Source: Bifidobacterium scaligerum
Lineage (GTDB): Bacteria > Actinomycetota > Actinomycetes > Actinomycetales > Bifidobacteriaceae
DNA: 64,000 nucleotides
Assembly: GCF_002802865.1 (NCBI RefSeq)
Contig: NZ_PGLQ01000001.1
Span: 372,001 to 436,000, forward strand
Direction: 5' to 3'
In this document: piece after piece, positions 13,959-39,582 of the stretch
Layout: each line of letters starts with the position of its first letter
Numbering within the stretch: the stretch's first letter is position 1
Position numbers and translations under genes: made by a program
The notes under the pieces: generated by a model
Seen by the model: only the letters and a program-made list of their open reading frames with translations
Database searches by the model: none
What the model was told of the DNA's origin: nothing

Positions 13959-14540
13959 TCAGTGGCGAAACTCGATCGTGCCGGTCTCGGGGTCCATGGA
14001 TTCCACAATTGCCAGTGAATCCACGTCGTAGCCCTCCTCGCGCAGCTTGTCGCCGCCACCTTGGAATCCCTTTTCCACCGCGATACCGATGCCCTCGACC
14101 GTGGCTCCGGCTTTTTCGCACAGTTCGATAAGTCCCCGCAATGCCTTGCCGTTAGCCAGAAAATCGTCGATGAGCAGTACATGGTCTCCCGGGTTCAGGT
14201 ACTTCTTGGAGACAATCACCGGGAATTCCTTCTGCTTGGTGAAGGAGTAGACGGTAGTGGTGTACTGGTCACCGTCCAGATTGATGGACTGGGCCTTCTT
14301 GGCGAATACCACCGGTACGTCGCCGAAATGATGAGCTGCGCAGCAAGCGATGCCGATGCCGGAAGCCTCGATGGTCAGGATCTTGGTGATGGTCTTACCG
14401 GCGAAATGCTCAGCCCACGCCGCACCCATATGATCGAACAGACGTACGTCGCACTGATGGTTCAGAAATGCGTCGACTTTGAGCACATCGCCGACCTTGA
14501 CAGTGCCTTCGGCTTGGATTCGCTCCTCAAGTTCCTGCAA
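13959..14540 (-). CDS. xpt: Xanthine phosphoribosyltransferase
   Basis: 193 aa; converts xanthine and PRPP to XMP in purine salvage. The PRPP-binding motif [18 protein letters not shown] is at about residues 122-139. The TTG start at 14540 is supported by aaggagg eight bases upstream; no ATG gives full family length. Length matches the usual 190-195 aa. It is first gene of the xpt-pbuX operon. The upstream region shows no purine-riboswitch core, so control is probably by a protein at the palindrome 14569-14590. Confidence 0.93.
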
Positions 14541-14568
14541 TGGATTACCTCCTTGACATCAAGCTGAC

Positions 14569-14590
14569 ATAGTTACGGTTCAGTAACTAT
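14569..14590. promoter_or_regulatory. Palindrome upstream of xpt-pbuX, candidate operator
   Basis: Perfect 8-bp inverted arms atagttac (14569-14576) and gtaactat (14583-14590) with a 6-bp spacer, about 30-50 bp upstream of the xpt start codon. Position fits a repressor or activator site, or a small 5' hairpin in the mRNA. The cognate regulator is not identifiable here. Confidence 0.45.
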
Positions 14591-32487: not shown

Positions 32488-33099
32488 TCACCACAACACG
32501 TCAATCGGCGCGGTGGTTTTGTTGGTTTCAATGATGTGGCAGATCTGCTCAGGGGTTTCATTGCAGCCGCGGCGAATCCACAGCCAGATGATCGAGGAGA
32601 CGGCGGAGACGAGGATTTCCATCGCATAATCGGCGGGAATACCGTTGTAATCATGCTTTGGCTCCTCGCCGAAACGCTTGGCCTGCGCCACAATCAGCTG
32701 CTTCAACACGTTCTTCAGGCGATCATACAGTTGCATGTCGGTGCCTGAACGGGAGATGGCGTTGAAGAAGGCGTAGTCATTCTTAACGTAATGCAGCGCT
32801 TTGGCTATGGCTTCTTCCTTGAACGCATCGCAAATCGCCTTGCCGTCGGTGGTGATGGTCTGCCCGTTATCATCCGAATTCTCCACAAGAATCTCAGTCA
32901 GATCGTCAATGGTGTCGTCGATGAGCTGCTGGCGAAGGTCGAACTTATCGATGTAATGCATATAGAATGTGCCGCGATTGATACCGGCAGCGCGGGCGAT
33001 GTCGCTCACGGTCATGGCATCGAATCCTTTGGATTGCATCAGCGAAGTAAACGCCGCCTTGATTTTCGCCTCGGTTTTGGTATTGCGCTTACCTGCCAT
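32488..33099 (-). CDS. TetR family transcriptional regulator of the adjacent ABC exporter
   Basis: 203 aa. The helix-turn-helix is MTVSDIARAAGINRGTFYMHYIDKFDLRQQL (about residues 24-54). The C-terminal part resembles the TetR_C-type ligand/dimerisation domain and ends in a Trp/Ile-rich stretch (SSIIWLWIRRGC). It is divergent from an ABC exporter with 213 bp between start codons that contain a duplicated 13-bp motif, the probable operator. Confidence 0.92.
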   Translation of the reverse strand: MAGKRNTKTEAKIKAAFTSLMQSKGFDAMTVSDIARAAGINRGTFYMHYIDKFDLRQQLIDDTIDDLTEILVENSDDNGQTITTDGKAICDAFKEEAIAKALHYVKNDYAFFNAISRSGTDMQLYDRLKNVLKQLIVAQAKRFGEEPKHDYNGIPADYAMEILVSAVSSIIWLWIRRGCNETPEQICHIIETNKTTAPIDVLW

Positions 33100-33157: not shown

Positions 33158-33294
33158 ATCAACACGTTGTCCGATTAGCGTGCGGAATCGGCAATATTGC
33201 CTGAAGTGTTCAATTTAGACAGTTCGTCCAATTGTGGTTATTGACCGACTGTTCTTCGCGAAATTACGATGCAGGAAATAAATCAACACGTTGT
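33158..33294. promoter_or_regulatory. Duplicated 13-bp operator-like motif in the tetR/ABC divergent region
   Basis: atcaacacgttgt occurs at 33158-33170 and again at 33282-33294. Its core caac-ac-gttg is an imperfect palindrome. An inverted actgtctaa pair lies near each TSS side (about 33127 and 33213). The copies sit close to the tetR start and just before the ATPase start, as expected for control of both promoters. Confidence 0.6.
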
Positions 33295-33312
33295 TTAATC
33301 AAGGATATTTTC

Positions 33313-34014
33313 ATGGCATACATCGAAATGGTTCATAGCTTCAAGCGGTATCAAACCGGCAGCACCACCATCACCGCCAATAACGATGTCAGTTTCGGCA
33401 TTGAACAAGGCGAGTTGGCTATCATCCTCGGTGCATCCGGTGCCGGCAAATCCACCGTGCTCAACATTCTGGGCGGCATGGACACCAACTCCGAAGGTCA
33501 GGTGATCATTGACGGCAATGACATCTCCAACTACAACGCCCATCAACTCACCGACTATCGCCGGTACGACATCGGCTTCGTCTTCCAGTTCTACAATCTC
33601 GTGGCCAACCTGACCGCCAAAGAGAATGTGGAACTCGCCTCCGAAATCGTCAAAGATGCACAGGACCCAGTGCAGACACTGATTGACGTCGGGCTCAAAG
33701 ACCGCATCGATAATTTCCCCGCTCAGCTTTCCGGTGGCGAACAGCAGCGCGTGGCCATCGCCCGAGCTGTGGCCAAGAATCCCAAAATCCTTCTGTGTGA
33801 CGAGCCGACCGGCGCACTCGACTACAACACCGGCAAACAAGTGCTGCAGATCCTGCAAGACCAAAGCCGTAAGAAAGGCGCCACCGTGGTCATCGTGACC
33901 CACAACTCAGCCATCGCACCGATAGCGGACCGCGTCATTCATATGCACGATGCGCGCGTCAAATCCATCGAAATCAATGAACATCCGATGGATATCAAGG
34001 ATCTGGAGTGGTAA
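33313..34014 (+). CDS. ABC transporter ATP-binding protein (LolD/MacB type)
   Basis: 233 aa; ATG at 33313 follows aagga. Walker A is GASGAGKST (about residues 39-47), signature LSGGEQQR (about 138-145) and Walker [13 protein letters not shown] (about 158-169), the MacB/LolD subfamily pattern. It overlaps or abuts the large permease gene by a few bases, so the pair is cotranscribed. Such TetR-controlled pairs usually export peptides, antimicrobials or lipids; substrate unknown. Confidence 0.94.
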
Positions 34015-34016
34015 AT

Positions 34017-37000
34017 ATGACTGATTTCAACGATTTCCTGGTGGCCGACGAAACCGATGCTCGACAGTCATCGGCTCGTCGCAGCCATAAACGAAGCATG
34101 ACATCACGCACTGGAATGCTACGCAAACACATGCTGTGGAAGGACATCTTCGCGACCCTCAACAAATCCAAGGGCCGGTTCCTGTCTATCGTGAGCCTGA
34201 TGTTGCTCGGCTCGTTCGCACTCGTAGGACTGTTCGTCACCGGACCGAACATGCGCATCACCGGCACCGATTACTACCGCGACAATCATCTGGCGGATAT
34301 CACTGTTGTCAGCGACTACGGTCTGACCGATGAGGATACGCGCATCATTCGAAATACCTCGGGCGTCAAATCCGCGGAATTCGGCTACTTCAAAGATGTG
34401 ACCATCAAGAACAGCAACCATAGCCTGCGCGTCTACTCCAATCCGAAAACCATCTCCACGTTTGACGTGGAGGAAGGTCGATTGCCAAGCAAAGCGAACG
34501 AAATCGCCTTGGACCGCACCGAGCGGAACAAGTACGCCATCGGCAGCACCATCACCTTGAGCGAGCAGCCGGATATCGCGGGGGACAAGGTCCTGAAGCG
34601 CAGCCGATACACGGTGGTGGGATTCGTGAATTCCACCGAGGGGCTATCGAATGTAAACCTCGGCCAATCCACGGCAGGCACCGGCGAACTCGACGGTTAC
34701 GCAGTGGTGACGGATGCCGCTTTCGATTCCAAGGTGAAGATGATCGGCCGCGTGACCTTCAAGGACACGCAGAACGTCGATTACTGGACCGGCGAATACC
34801 GCGATCTCGTACAGGCGCATAAGGACACCTTGACCAATCGCCTTGCCGATCAGCCCAAGGCCCGTGAGGAATCCATCAAAAACGAACGCCGTGAGCAGAT
34901 TGACAAGGCGCAATCCCAAGTCGATGCAGCCAAGCAGCAGTTGAGCGATGCGCAGACACAGCTGGACGATGCCAAAGCCCAGATTGAATCAGGCAAAGAT
35001 CAACTCGCCGATGGTAGCGTACAAGCAGTTGATCAAGCGTCATCTGCACTGGCAGAACTTTCCGGTGCAAGCGCGCAAATCGCTTCCGCAGGCTCGCAGC
35101 TGACTGCGGCGCAAACCAAGTTGGCGTCAGGCGGCCAGCAGCTGAGCCAGGGACAAGGCCAACTTGACGTGGCTTGGCAGCAGCTGTCAGACGCCAAAGC
35201 GCAATTGGATATGGCCCGCACGGCGTTGGATGCTTCCAAAACAGTACTGGACAAAACCGGTGCGACGCTGCAATCCTGGGCTGATACGGGGCTTACCGGC
35301 AACGCATACGACAGCGTGAAGGCACAGTACGACAAGGCATTGCAGGCATACAACGATGCGGCAAAGCAATACAACAGCAAGCTCGGTGAATACAACACCG
35401 CATTACAGCAGTGGAACTCCAGTGCCTCGGCTCTCAAACAGGGCAGTGAGGAATATCAGCAGAATGCGGCCGCCATTGCGGATGCCGGCAATCAACTGGC
35501 CAACAAACAGGCCGAATTAGGCGCAGCAGTATCCAGTGCTCCGGCCAGCGTATCAGCAGGAGCCAGCCAGCTGATCGAAGGCAGTCGGAGTATCGAACAA
35601 GCAGAGGAGGAATACAACCAGAAACTGCAGGAATTCAACGATGCCAAGCCGGCCGCCGAAAAGAAAATCAAGCAGGCCGAGCACGATATCGCACTGGCCC
35701 GCGAAAAGGTGGATACACTCGAAGTTCCCGTATATTCAATAGACGGGCGCCGAGAGGGATTGACTTCGGAAGGTTACCGAGTCTACGAGATCATAGCGAA
35801 TATCGTGGAAAAACTGGCGATGATTTTCCCGGTGTTCCTGTACTTTGTGGCTGCTCTCGTGACTTTCACCACGATGGGCCGCATGGTGGATGAGGAGCGC
35901 ACCAACTCCGGTACATTGAAGGCCTTGGGCTACGGCAATCAGGACATTCTGAAGAAGTTCGTATTCTACGGGTTCACCGCCTCCACCATCGGCACGATTC
36001 TGGGCGTGCTGCTCGGCCACACCTTGCTGCCGATGATCGTCTACCATGCGTACAGTGACGGGTTCACCGTGCCGCGCATCGCGCTGGTATTCCATCCGGT
36101 TGTGACCGCGATGGCGTTCCTGCTCGCTTGGGTGAGTGCCGTGGTACCGGCCGTACTCGCCGCATATCGTGAACTTCGGGAGAAGCCAGCGGCACTGCTG
36201 CTGCCGAAGCCGCCGGCCAAAGGTTCGAAGATCTTCCTGGAGCGCATCAAGCCGCTATGGAATCGGCTGAACTTCACGCGCAAAGTCACCGCACGCAATC
36301 TGTTCCGCTACAAGACCCGAGGACTCATGACCATTGTCGGCGTGGCCGGAGCCGTAGCACTGCTCACGGCAGGACTTGGTGTGCAAGCCTCCATCGGGCA
36401 GATCGGCGAGCGGCAGTTCGACGAAATCATCCACTACGACCTCATCGTGGCCGAACGCAGCGATAACAACGAGGAACAGAACAAGACGGTGGCCGATTCC
36501 ATGAAACGGTCGGCTGTCGATTCCTCCACGCCAATTCGTTACGAGGAACTCACCAAAACCGCCGGCAAGGAGCATGACAAGCAGAGCATCACCTTGTTGG
36601 TCACTGATGATACCTACAACTTCGGCGATTACCTGACGCTGCGTTCGCGCGTCGGCCGCAATCCACAGGTGCTCACCGACCGCGGAGCAATCATCTCTGA
36701 ACGCATGGCGGACATGCTGAACGCCAAGGTGGGGGATACCATCACCGTAACTGACAGCAATGGTGTTGATCGTCGTGTGCGCGTCGACGGCATCTCCGAA
36801 ATGTATATCGGCCATTTCATGGTGATGAGCTCGGGCGAATACGAGCATGTGTTCCATAAGGATTACCAGTCGAATGCATATATGGTGAAGCTCACAGACA
36901 ACAGCATAGAGAACGCTGAGCGTCAAGGCGCGAAGTTCATGAAAGTGGACGGTGTTAGGTCAGTGGTGCAGAACACCACGATGAAGAACCAGGTGGCCAC

Positions 37001-37415
37001 CATCGTGAACTCGCTCAATCAGATCATGGAGGTGCTGATTCTGGTGGCGGCATTGCTTGCCATCGTGATCCTCTACAACCTCACCAACCTGAACGTCTCC
37101 GAACGAATCCGCGAGCTCTCAACCATTAAGGTGCTCGGCTTCCACTCGAACGAGACCACGATGTACATCTACCGCGAAACCATCGTGTTGTCTGTGATAG
37201 GCGTGCTTGCCGGCTATGGGTTTGGTGCCGGGCTTCATCGGTACATTATCAACGAAGTGCCGCCGGACGAAGTCATGTTCGACCCGGCGCTTGGCTGGTC
37301 TGCATGTGTGGCACCCGCTGTGCTTGTTGCTGCAGTGCTAGGTGCGCTTGGCGTGGTTGTCTATCGGCAGCTGCGTGACGTGGACATGCTTGCCGCCCTC
37401 AAATCGGTGGAATAA
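34017..37415 (+). CDS. Large FtsX-type ABC permease with coiled-coil extracytoplasmic domain
   Basis: 1132 aa; ATG at 34017 follows ctggag, two bases after the ATPase stop. A first helix at about residues 50-72 is followed by an extracytoplasmic domain. That domain holds a long Gln/Ala/Lys-rich coiled coil (about 285-575; repeats such as AKQQLSDAQTQLDDAKAQIESGKDQL). Then come an FtsX helix bundle (about 605-735), a second helix and folded domain, and a final FtsX bundle (about 1005-1125). This double-FtsX architecture is common in Gram-positive bacteria. The coiled coil is long enough to span much of the cell wall. Confidence 0.93.
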   Translation: MTDFNDFLVADETDARQSSARRSHKRSMTSRTGMLRKHMLWKDIFATLNKSKGRFLSIVSLMLLGSFALVGLFVTGPNMRITGTDYYRDNHLADITVVSDYGLTDEDTRIIRNTSGVKSAEFGYFKDVTIKNSNHSLRVYSNPKTISTFDVEEGRLPSKANEIALDRTERNKYAIGSTITLSEQPDIAGDKVLKRSRYTVVGFVNSTEGLSNVNLGQSTAGTGELDGYAVVTDAAFDSKVKMIGRVTFKDTQNVDYWTGEYRDLVQAHKDTLTNRLADQPKAREESIKNERREQIDKAQSQVDAAKQQLSDAQTQLDDAKAQIESGKDQLADGSVQAVDQASSALAELSGASAQIASAGSQLTAAQTKLASGGQQLSQGQGQLDVAWQQLSDAKAQLDMARTALDASKTVLDKTGATLQSWADTGLTGNAYDSVKAQYDKALQAYNDAAKQYNSKLGEYNTALQQWNSSASALKQGSEEYQQNAAAIADAGNQLANKQAELGAAVSSAPASVSAGASQLIEGSRSIEQAEEEYNQKLQEFNDAKPAAEKKIKQAEHDIALAREKVDTLEVPVYSIDGRREGLTSEGYRVYEIIANIVEKLAMIFPVFLYFVAALVTFTTMGRMVDEERTNSGTLKALGYGNQDILKKFVFYGFTASTIGTILGVLLGHTLLPMIVYHAYSDGFTVPRIALVFHPVVTAMAFLLAWVSAVVPAVLAAYRELREKPAALLLPKPPAKGSKIFLERIKPLWNRLNFTRKVTARNLFRYKTRGLMTIVGVAGAVALLTAGLGVQASIGQIGERQFDEIIHYDLIVAERSDNNEEQNKTVADSMKRSAVDSSTPIRYEELTKTAGKEHDKQSITLLVTDDTYNFGDYLTLRSRVGRNPQVLTDRGAIISERMADMLNAKVGDTITVTDSNGVDRRVRVDGISEMYIGHFMVMSSGEYEHVFHKDYQSNAYMVKLTDNSIENAERQGAKFMKVDGVRSVVQNTTMKNQVATIVNSLNQIMEVLILVAALLAIVILYNLTNLNVSERIRELSTIKVLGFHSNETTMYIYRETIVLSVIGVLAGYGFGAGLHRYIINEVPPDEVMFDPALGWSACVAPAVLVAAVLGALGVVVYRQLRDVDMLAALKSVE

Positions 37416-37781
37416 TCGCGACGAATTATTACTGGTAGATGTGGCGTAACAACGAACTATTCCGATCTTTGGGACCACTCCAGTTGTTGCGCCACATATA
37501 TTGAATGTCGTGACTGTTGCCATGATGACGATACATAACTAATACCTAGGTTGGCGCGCACGATGACAGGCACGATGACGAACATGACGGTGTGGATAGA
37601 GATGGTATGTAGGAAAGAAGAATGAAGCGGACGCCGTTGTCCGATTATTCATTGCATCGGCTACGAGCCGATTGTTGAATTATCGAATCTTCAGTTGTGT
37701 GACCTCTGTGCATTGATTACAAGGCCAAAAGAAACGTTACAATCATACGTTTCTGCTGTTAGACAGCGGTGGGCTGAATAC
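37416..37781. other. 366-bp intergenic region
   Basis: Contains a long stem at 37440-37453 with 37483-37496 (14 bp, one G-T pair), a likely end structure for the ABC transcript, and the peptide-gene terminator near 37730. No reading frame with a ribosome site was seen. Confidence 0.6.
37730..37754 (-). terminator. Terminator of the micropeptide transcript
   Basis: Perfect 8-bp inverted repeat agaaacgt/acgtttct (37730-37737 with 37747-37754), followed on the minus strand by a short T-run. It lies 28 bp past the stop of the first micropeptide. Confidence 0.5.
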
Positions 37782-37907
37782 TCAGCGAGCGGACTCGTTG
37801 TCCTTGAGAATGTCGTTCAGCATCTTGCCGTTGGACATACCGTGCTGAATCATCGTGTTGGCGCCGAGGGTAGCGAGACCGCGAATCATGGAATCCTTGA
37901 AAGACAT
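37782..37907 (-). CDS. Micropeptide 1 (41 aa), paralogue of the 42-aa neighbour
   Basis: Not a recognised family. 41 aa starting MSFKDSMIRGLATLGANTM, preceded by aaggaagcaccc, so it has a real ribosome site. About 25 of 41 residues are identical to micropeptide 2 (38020-38148), including MSFKDSM, RGLA, the SN pair, DIL and the C-terminal AR. Conservation in protein with different flanking DNA argues for selection on the peptide. No membrane helix, signal or cysteine is seen; it is likely a short amphipathic helix. Probably cotranscribed after micropeptide 2. Confidence 0.75.
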   Translation of the reverse strand: MSFKDSMIRGLATLGANTMIQHGMSNGKMLNDILKDNESAR

Positions 37908-38019
37908 GGGTGCTTCCTTACTCTAATGGTGTTTATATGTGGGGCTTTCGCCCTTTTGGTTAGTGGTGGCGCAAGCCATCCAGTCAGGCTTTGATGTCAA
38001 TCAGCCTTGGTGAAATAGT

Positions 38020-38148
38020 TCAGCGAGCGGTCTTAGTGACGTCGTTGAGAATGTCGGCGATCATCTGGTTGTTGGACGGGCCAGACTGAGCCATGGAGTT
38101 AACGCCGTACATTGCCAGACCGCGCAGCATGGAATCCTTGAAAGACAT
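38020..38148 (-). CDS. Micropeptide 2 (42 aa)
   Basis: 42 aa starting MSFKDSMLRGLAMYGVNSM, preceded by gaaaggaaaaatc. A longer in-frame start exists at 38211 but lacks a ribosome site, and paralogy with micropeptide 1 starts exactly at this ATG. The Met-rich N-terminal half could form an amphipathic helix; the C-terminal half is polar (MIADILNDVTKTAR). A LacI-type palindrome lies about 64 bp upstream, suggesting carbohydrate-linked control by the divergent LacI regulator. Function unknown. Confidence 0.75.
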   Translation of the reverse strand: MSFKDSMLRGLAMYGVNSMAQSGPSNNQMIADILNDVTKTAR

Positions 38149-38211
38149 GATTTTTCCTTTCGTATGTCCGAAGTAAGGCTTCGGTTTATTTGTTGTTTTC
38201 GTTGGCCTCAT

Positions 38212-38231
38212 TTCTGAAACCGGTTTCAGAA
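38212..38231. promoter_or_regulatory. LacI-family operator 1
   Basis: Perfect 20-bp palindrome ttctgaaaccggtttcagaa with the central CG typical of LacI/GalR operators, 64 bp before micropeptide 2. Confidence 0.8.
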
Positions 38232-38315
38232 TAGCGTGGCCTGCGGTCTAGGTCAAGTGGGGGACGAGTTTCGGCGTTTCTTAGTTATATTGCGGGAAAT
38301 GAGGAGTTATCTATA

Positions 38316-38329
38316 TCGAACCGGTTTGA
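38316..38329. promoter_or_regulatory. LacI-family operator 2
   Basis: Near-palindrome tcgaaccggtttga with the same aaccggtt core, on the lacI side of the divergent region; likely autoregulatory site. Confidence 0.6.
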
Positions 38330-38547: not shown

Positions 38548-39582
38548 ATGACACGGGGTGCGAAGCGGGATCGTCCGGTGATTAAAGATGTCGCACGCCT
38601 TGCTGGGGTTTCCGCTCCTACGGTTTCCCGATATCTTAACGGTACGGTCAACGTTACCGAAGAGAAACGGCGTCGTATCGCGGAAGCTATCAAGGAACTC
38701 GGTTACGAGCCGAGCGTAGTGGCGAGGGCTTTGTCGAATCGTGAGATGGATGCTGTAATCGTGTTTGCCTCGAAGCCGGACATGTTTTCCACATCCGCTA
38801 CCAACCATGGCGTGGAGGCGGCTGCACGCAAGCGTCGTTTCTTGACCAACATCGTCTCGTTGGATGAATCGGATATGAGTTCCGTCGAGGCTCGTGTACG
38901 TATGGGTTTGTCGGTTCGTCCTGCTGGCGTGATCGTCTACGAATATGGCTGGGCTGGCGTGGAGGCGCTCAAATGCCTGCCCCATGACATACCCACCGTG
39001 GTTGTCGGTGGAGGCTTCGGCGATGGTGACTATCAGATTATCAATGCCGAGCGTGATGGCGGTCGTTGGATGACCATGCATCTGCTGGACCTAGGACACG
39101 AAACTGTGTTCCATGTGGCTTGGGATCGGCAAGAGGGAGACAATTCCCGGACAAATGGTTGGCGTGATGCACTTGAAGAGCGCGGTATCGAAGTACCTGA
39201 ACCGATTGTGGTACCGTCCGGTGATCTGAGAAAGGCAGTGTCAGCCGGTAAGGTTCTGGGAAGGCGTAAGGATGTGACTGCCGTGTTCGCCGCCAGCGAC
39301 GAAATCGCCATCGCGGTGATGAAGGGGCTGCGGGAAGCCGGACGCCGTGTGCCGCAGGAAGTAAGCGTGGTGGGCTTCGATGGTATGAACTTCGACGTAT
39401 TGTGGGAGCCGCCGCTGACGAGCTACACCCAGAACTTTCATGAGATGGGGGAGCGGGCGTTCCGTATGCTCTACGAGCAGGTACGCGCCAAACGTGCCGG
39501 GCATGAGCCGCCACAGCCTCAAGTCGAAGTCGTTCAAGGCAAGCCGTTGCTCCGTGCCTCTGATGCCGCGCCGTTCGTGTGA
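38548..39582 (+). CDS. LacI/GalR family transcriptional regulator
   Basis: 344 aa. N-terminal helix-turn-helix and hinge VIKDVARLAGVSAPTVSRYLNGTVNVTEEKRRRIAEAIKELGYEPS (residues 11-56), then a periplasmic-binding-protein-like effector domain (about 62-335). The effector domain ends in the standard GFDGMNFDVLWEPPLTSYTQNFHEMGERAFRML. It is divergent from the micropeptides, with two aaccggtt operators between, and no sugar transporter is adjacent. Effector unknown. Confidence 0.93.
   Translation: MTRGAKRDRPVIKDVARLAGVSAPTVSRYLNGTVNVTEEKRRRIAEAIKELGYEPSVVARALSNREMDAVIVFASKPDMFSTSATNHGVEAAARKRRFLTNIVSLDESDMSSVEARVRMGLSVRPAGVIVYEYGWAGVEALKCLPHDIPTVVVGGGFGDGDYQIINAERDGGRWMTMHLLDLGHETVFHVAWDRQEGDNSRTNGWRDALEERGIEVPEPIVVPSGDLRKAVSAGKVLGRRKDVTAVFAASDEIAIAVMKGLREAGRRVPQEVSVVGFDGMNFDVLWEPPLTSYTQNFHEMGERAFRMLYEQVRAKRAGHEPPQPQVEVVQGKPLLRASDAAPFV

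Follow-up and report, generated by a model that had tools for sequence, protein, structure and literature searches.

In the textbook picture, LacI regulators control enzymes and transporters. In the window analyzed here, i.e., the whole 64,000-nucleotide stretch of DNA from Bifidobacterium scaligerum, a LacI-family regulator of 344 amino acids (38548..39582, plus strand) lies divergent from two adjacent genes for very small peptides. This raises the question of what these micropeptides are and what a LacI protein would achieve by controlling them. An earlier note, made from the sequence alone, proposed stress- or carbohydrate-induced regulators, toxins or membrane-active peptides. The arrangement is unusual in that the exactly co-inherited partner of this LacI is only a 42-residue protein, present in arrays of one to three. 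It is also genetically simple, with one regulator, one operator pair and one small product.

Two adjacent micropeptide genes and their family

The operon is read on the minus strand, with the 42-amino-acid gene first and the 41-amino-acid gene second. The first gene (38020..38148, minus strand) encodes MSFKDSMLRGLAMYGVNSMAQSGPSNNQMIADILNDVTKTAR, which is present as an identical protein in a sister species, and is preceded by the Shine-Dalgarno sequence GAAAGGA (38155..38161, minus strand). The second gene (37782..37907, minus strand) encodes its paralogue MSFKDSMIRGLATLGANTMIQHGMSNGKMLNDILKDNESAR. Both open reading frames are present where the earlier note had placed them, each with an AAGGA-type ribosome site, and the paralogy it had estimated at about 25 of 41 residues was reproduced on counting (25 identical positions, 61%). 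On the 3' side of the second gene, a hairpin with a UUUU tract behind it (37730..37754, minus strand) is a weak terminator candidate; its z of -1.2 is not significant alone, and it is missing from the consensus scan.

Adjoining the cassette, positions 34008-37415 of the window encode a 1135-amino-acid ABC-permease-like protein, in which a long central coiled-coil-like stretch was seen by eye. Its likely ATPase (33232-34014) is located upstream of the permease-like gene, which is also preceded by a TetR-like regulator (32488-33099, minus strand).

A search for homologues across bifidobacteria had been suggested as a check on the coding potential of the two frames. In this genus-wide search, relatives with a core conserved at the protein level were found in 23 of 112 Bifidobacterium genomes, giving a family of 35 members arranged in arrays of one to three paralogous peptide ORFs per locus. 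Over the loci scanned, the 35 genes correspond to 34 unique DNA sequences and 31 unique peptides. Invariant in the family are M1, S2, K4, D5, S6, G10, A12, G15, D32 and the C-terminal R. The third base varies in the codons of S2, S6, L11, A12 and G15, silently at several invariant residues, and mean pN (0.23) is lower than mean pS (0.33) despite a strong codon bias, which suppresses silent change. The codon for Asp5 (38134-38136 and 37893-37895 in the window) is GAT in all 34 unique coding sequences; other Asp codons of the family are mostly GAC. This fixed GAT, close to the start codon, is a constraint at the nucleotide level that the protein reading alone leaves unexplained.

Among 395 genomes of the class searched for distant relatives, none was found beyond the window's own genome. 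A collection of 84,980 species genomes yielded 20 loci on scanning, all of them in Bifidobacterium. The named carriers in the collection include B. olomucense, B. callitrichidarum, B. callitrichos, B. saguini, B. myosotis, B. hapali, B. aesculapii, B. stellenboschense, B. felsineum and B. rousetti, and B. pluvialisilvae likely carries a further member. Most of the named carrier species are isolates from primates such as tamarins and marmosets. Pattern matches to the family in IMG/VR were not confirmed, and those in a plasmid search stayed at chance level. As anticipated by the remark in the earlier note that no known family comes to mind, Pfam, NCBIfam and Rfam, as well as PHROGs, gave no significant match to the peptides or the locus. 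Run against PDB sequences, the family profile likewise scored no better than chance, and the peptide sequence strings had no match in the literature searched. Judged from their conservation, the two small genes are real members of a previously undescribed protein family of ~42 residues.

Co-inheritance with a dedicated LacI regulator

The divergent LacI regulator had been recognized before and is confirmed here by its Pfam LacI and Peripla_BP_3 domains (PF00356, 5.7e-18; PF13377, 3.2e-29; both above curated cut-offs). It thus combines the N-terminal LacI helix-turn-helix with the periplasmic-binding-protein-like effector domain of the family, and a palindromic operator with a central CG overlaps the target promoter. 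Orthologues of this regulator (>510 bits, at least 72% identity) occur in exactly the 23 peptide carriers and in none of the 89 other genomes. The 23 genomes cannot be counted as independent, since carrier status clusters on a tree of GltB from 30 genomes (three changes). Outside this orthologue group, the best match to the window LacI in any genome has 50% identity. A genome near that of the window (G055) has a LacI of 97% and a GltB of 99% identity. G072 is nested inside the carrier clade on the GltB tree and has neither lacI nor the peptides, which, going by the tree, is a joint loss.

In 19 genomes, lacI is divergent from the peptides and within ~0.6 kb of them, and in G044 it is located ~1.8 kb away. 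The genes flanking the lacI-peptide pair vary among species. In G017, G059 and G097, lacI lies away from the peptides, and both operators described below, O1 and O2, remain beside the peptides. Both operators would thus serve the peptide promoter, and O2 would not merely be a site for autoregulation of lacI.

Operators and promoter

The perfect 20-bp palindrome reported earlier upstream of the peptide genes was found at 38212..38231. This operator, O1 (TTCTGAAACCGGTTTCAGAA), covers the -10 box and the predicted start point of the promoter TTGACC-17-TATTCT (38228..38256, minus strand). O1 is present in 24/24 leaders examined, in one of them with a single mismatch, and 100 shuffles of the window contained no match to it with up to three mismatches. 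The pattern TTGNNN-17-TATTCT/TATTAT recurs in nearly all of them, with the -10 overlapping O1. As an additional observation, G048 encodes an identical peptide twice, 8 kb apart, each copy with its own O1 (L033:6214-6342 and 14444-14572).

The second operator, O2 (TCGAACCGGTTTGA; 38316..38329), has its centre 101 bp from that of O1. In other species, counterparts of the form TCGAACCGGTTCGA are centred 101-103 bp upstream of O1, a spacing determined from the 12 leaders having both palindromes in strict form. The conserved spacing is suggestive of DNA looping, even though the 9.6-9.8 helical turns that it spans do not prove phase. The earlier note had noticed neither O2 nor the overlap of -10 box and operator, and it had likewise missed the structure of the leader and, in other genomes, the second family of operator-linked peptides.

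No second copy of the 14-bp O1 core with 0 or 1 mismatch was found in the window's genome, and the regulon therefore looks strictly local. With up to two mismatches, the genome contains 15 sites versus 9 for the reversed control, so we claim no further regulon target. Taken by itself, the transcriptional part of the model, i.e., a LacI-controlled operon, is very probable from this sequence evidence.

Leader RNA and codon usage

The transcript start predicted from the promoter coincides with the centre of O1. The hairpin H1 (GGUUUCA/UGAGGCC; 38204..38221, minus strand) is located at this predicted 5' end, and its 5' arm is one half of the operator. In 24/24 leaders, the first bases GGUUUC pair with a downstream arm of the GAAACC, GAAGCC or GAGGCC type, in which all variation keeps the pairing. 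A second hairpin, H2 (CCGAAG/CUUCGG; 38168..38184, minus strand), ends a few bases before the Shine-Dalgarno sequence and was located 5-7 nt before the ribosome-site GAAAG in 19 of the 20 leaders scored. Its stem is kept though the sequences differ among leaders, i.e., it covaries. The conservation of H1 and H2 in the leader corresponds to a mean z of about -3.5. As 5'-terminal stems stabilise bacterial mRNA, e.g., that of ompA, H1 may by analogy act as an mRNA-stabilising 5' stem.

Both the conserved leader structure and the fixed GAT codon of D5 would also suit a dual-function or mainly RNA regulator, in which the LacI-controlled transcript would exert part of its effect by base pairing, with the ORFs of secondary importance. 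We consider this unlikely, however, since protein-level conservation extends along the sequence, third bases vary and codons are optimised, and since it is the protein that is repeated in the arrays of one to three paralogous ORFs. H2, whose sequence varies while its pairing is kept, fits a structural role better than base pairing, and Rfam gave no match.

With ribosomal proteins as the reference, the codon adaptation index of the peptide genes is 0.70 and 0.72. Ribosomal proteins themselves range from 0.52 to 0.81 with a median near 0.77, and synonymous shuffles of the same peptides have a mean of 0.33 (p <= 2e-4). The peptide genes appear to bear the hallmarks of very high expression and to be switched on at a high level by the repressor. 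The high abundance expected from this codon usage, together with a simple helical composition, would be compatible with a peptide that lacks a single target and acts in a chaperone-like, storage or stress-buffering role. Such a role has a low probability, as the invariant S2, K4, D5, S6, G10, A12, G15, D32 and C-terminal R suggest a specific contact surface.

Properties of the peptides

The peptides have a net charge of 0 to +3, and their helical hydrophobic moment is no higher than that of shuffled sequences. No transmembrane stretch was found in them, the best 19-residue Kyte-Doolittle mean being 0.1-0.8. By composition, they are soluble, weakly charged and non-amphipathic, which argues against membrane-active, signal-bearing and classical toxin peptides. 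The AlphaFold model consists of one low-confidence helix (pLDDT 72, pTM 0.29) and is not informative. An amphipathic or membrane helix was rejected on the values given for moment and hydrophobicity, and a membrane small protein or type I toxin was rejected because the single transmembrane helix of these classes is missing.

The membrane-active reading put forward in the earlier note is not supported, given the low charge and the missing amphipathic moment and transmembrane stretch. Its toxin-like reading fares no better, as neither a partner nor an immunity gene is conserved and the peptides are non-amphipathic. A variant of the latter is an intracellular toxin or growth brake freed by a sugar signal, e.g., an inhibitor of translation or division. 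This would agree with the likely double-operator repression of very small proteins and with a dispensable cassette, absent from G072 and most of the genus, and is nonetheless quite improbable: no antitoxin-like partner is conserved beside the genes, one to three codon-optimised copies would burden the cell heavily, and the toxin families of Pfam and NCBIfam gave no match.

Aureocin A53-type bacteriocins resemble the micropeptides in their similar length, their helical nature and a short LAxYG motif. Homology to aureocin A53, lacticin Q and epidermicin was rejected in a profile test (hhalign probability 0.8% over 13 columns). The strongly cationic, amphipathic and Trp-rich character of these bacteriocins is absent from the micropeptides, whose charge is 0 to +3 and whose moment is not above that of shuffles. 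The lack of profile similarity to aureocin-type leaderless bacteriocins likewise speaks against a membrane-active or toxin-like nature. We give little credence to a secreted or membrane-active peptide under sugar control (leaderless bacteriocin, signal peptide or modulin), for which tandem diversifying paralogues with constant N-termini, the codon usage of highly expressed genes and the superficially aureocin-like LAxYG...KVL would speak, but which the low charge, the lack of amphipathic moment and hydrophobic stretch, the negligible hhalign score and the recurrence of lacI as the only gene beside most loci contradict. Membrane, toxin and bacteriocin readings of the micropeptides are disfavoured.

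Ligand of the regulator and related systems

PtxS of Pseudomonas, like the window regulator, belongs to the LacI family, and its footprinted operator is the same palindrome; PtxS blocks the -10 region or start point until it is released by 2-ketogluconate (PMC3402500, PMC11678583). The 14-bp operator of the PtxS/kgu operon, TGAAACCGGTTTCA, is identical to the site at the locus and likewise lies over the -10 box or start point (PMC3402500, PMC11678583). PtxS controls the enzymes of 2-ketogluconate catabolic operons and its own gene, whereas in the window's genome an exact site occurs only once, upstream of the micropeptide genes.

A sister group of LacI proteins is 48-50% identical to the window LacI and has a nearly identical recognition helix. 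In three of the four sister-LacI genomes, TGAAACCGGTTTCA occurs in two or three exact copies, some of which lie before a GH43 gene and a gluconate 5-dehydrogenase, the latter scoring above the NCBIfam cut-off; this has the appearance of a sugar-acid regulon. Extra copies of TGAAACCGGTTTCA in other genomes mostly lie in unrelated settings or in sister-LacI genomes, with the exception of G059 and G097, where they are located upstream of the second peptide described below. Together, the PtxS operator match and the sister-LacI targets make a sugar acid a reasonable guess at the ligand of the window LacI, and a guess only; the analogy is weak, as other LacI proteins may also use PtxS-type operators. 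The proposal of a carbohydrate-induced regulator is upheld as far as induction is concerned, since the genes appear to be controlled by the adjacent LacI and are hence probably carbohydrate-responsive. In some genomes, sister lacI genes (L152, L153, L154, L155) lie beside GH88/heparinase-type and other carbohydrate genes.

Bifidobacterial LacI regulons of 10 genomes share with the present case a local LacI regulator, a palindromic site and few targets; in the sections of that study drawn on here, the targets are sugar-catabolic and include no such peptides, and none of the named carriers is among the species of those 10 genomes (Khoroshkin et al. 2016, PMC4746261).

Proposed mechanism

We propose that the cassette works as a two-part sensor-output device. 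By binding O1 over the -10 box and start point, and probably also O2 ~101 bp upstream, LacI would hold the promoter closed, and it would let go once its ligand, most plausibly a sugar or sugar acid, accumulates. The operon mRNA, with its 5'-terminal hairpin, second hairpin, strong ribosome site and optimal codons, would then give rise to abundant peptides. These three steps we infer from strongly conserved sequence. In a fourth step, suggested by properties and context only, the soluble, mostly helical and cytoplasmic peptides would most likely bind and adjust a protein of carbon uptake or metabolism; no third gene is conserved with the cassette that would point to the target. The model as a whole is plausible and held tentatively, as something just short of probable.

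In function, the fourth step would be comparable to the action of SgrT of E. coli on the glucose transporter, or to that of the 29-amino-acid VcdP on citrate synthase. VcdP of Vibrio cholerae binds and stimulates this enzyme (PMC8672173). SgrT and VcdP, too, are very small proteins made in response to carbon state. They are controlled by SgrR or CRP, whereas here the control would lie with a dedicated LacI, and the likeness drawn is one of function. LacI control and small regulatory proteins are each of a known kind; their combination is, to our knowledge, new. The cassette lets one ask what role abundant bacterial micropeptides play and which gut sugar triggers them in primate bifidobacteria.

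A second operator-linked peptide

An unrelated peptide of 38 amino acids (MTNKNIFGDILNYCADNMFPESIAREKMAESARRHGNR or similar) is encoded behind the extra operator copy in G059 (L063:2224-2340) and G097 (L065:2198-2314), and a third copy of it, with a less complete operator, was found in G004 (L156:881-994). In a more specific form of the proposed mechanism, LacI would be a dedicated sugar-acid sensor with no visible regulon beyond highly expressed soluble micropeptides of one or two unrelated families, converting the metabolic signal directly into a protein-level effector, and an operator half would be re-used as the 5' arm of a hairpin that stabilises the mRNA; this is possible, if rather doubtful. 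The 38-amino-acid peptides are placed under a GAAACCGGTTTC operator, end in R and have their own leader hairpin. Their operator lies upstream of the likely -35 and not over the -10, so that its effect could be either repression or activation.
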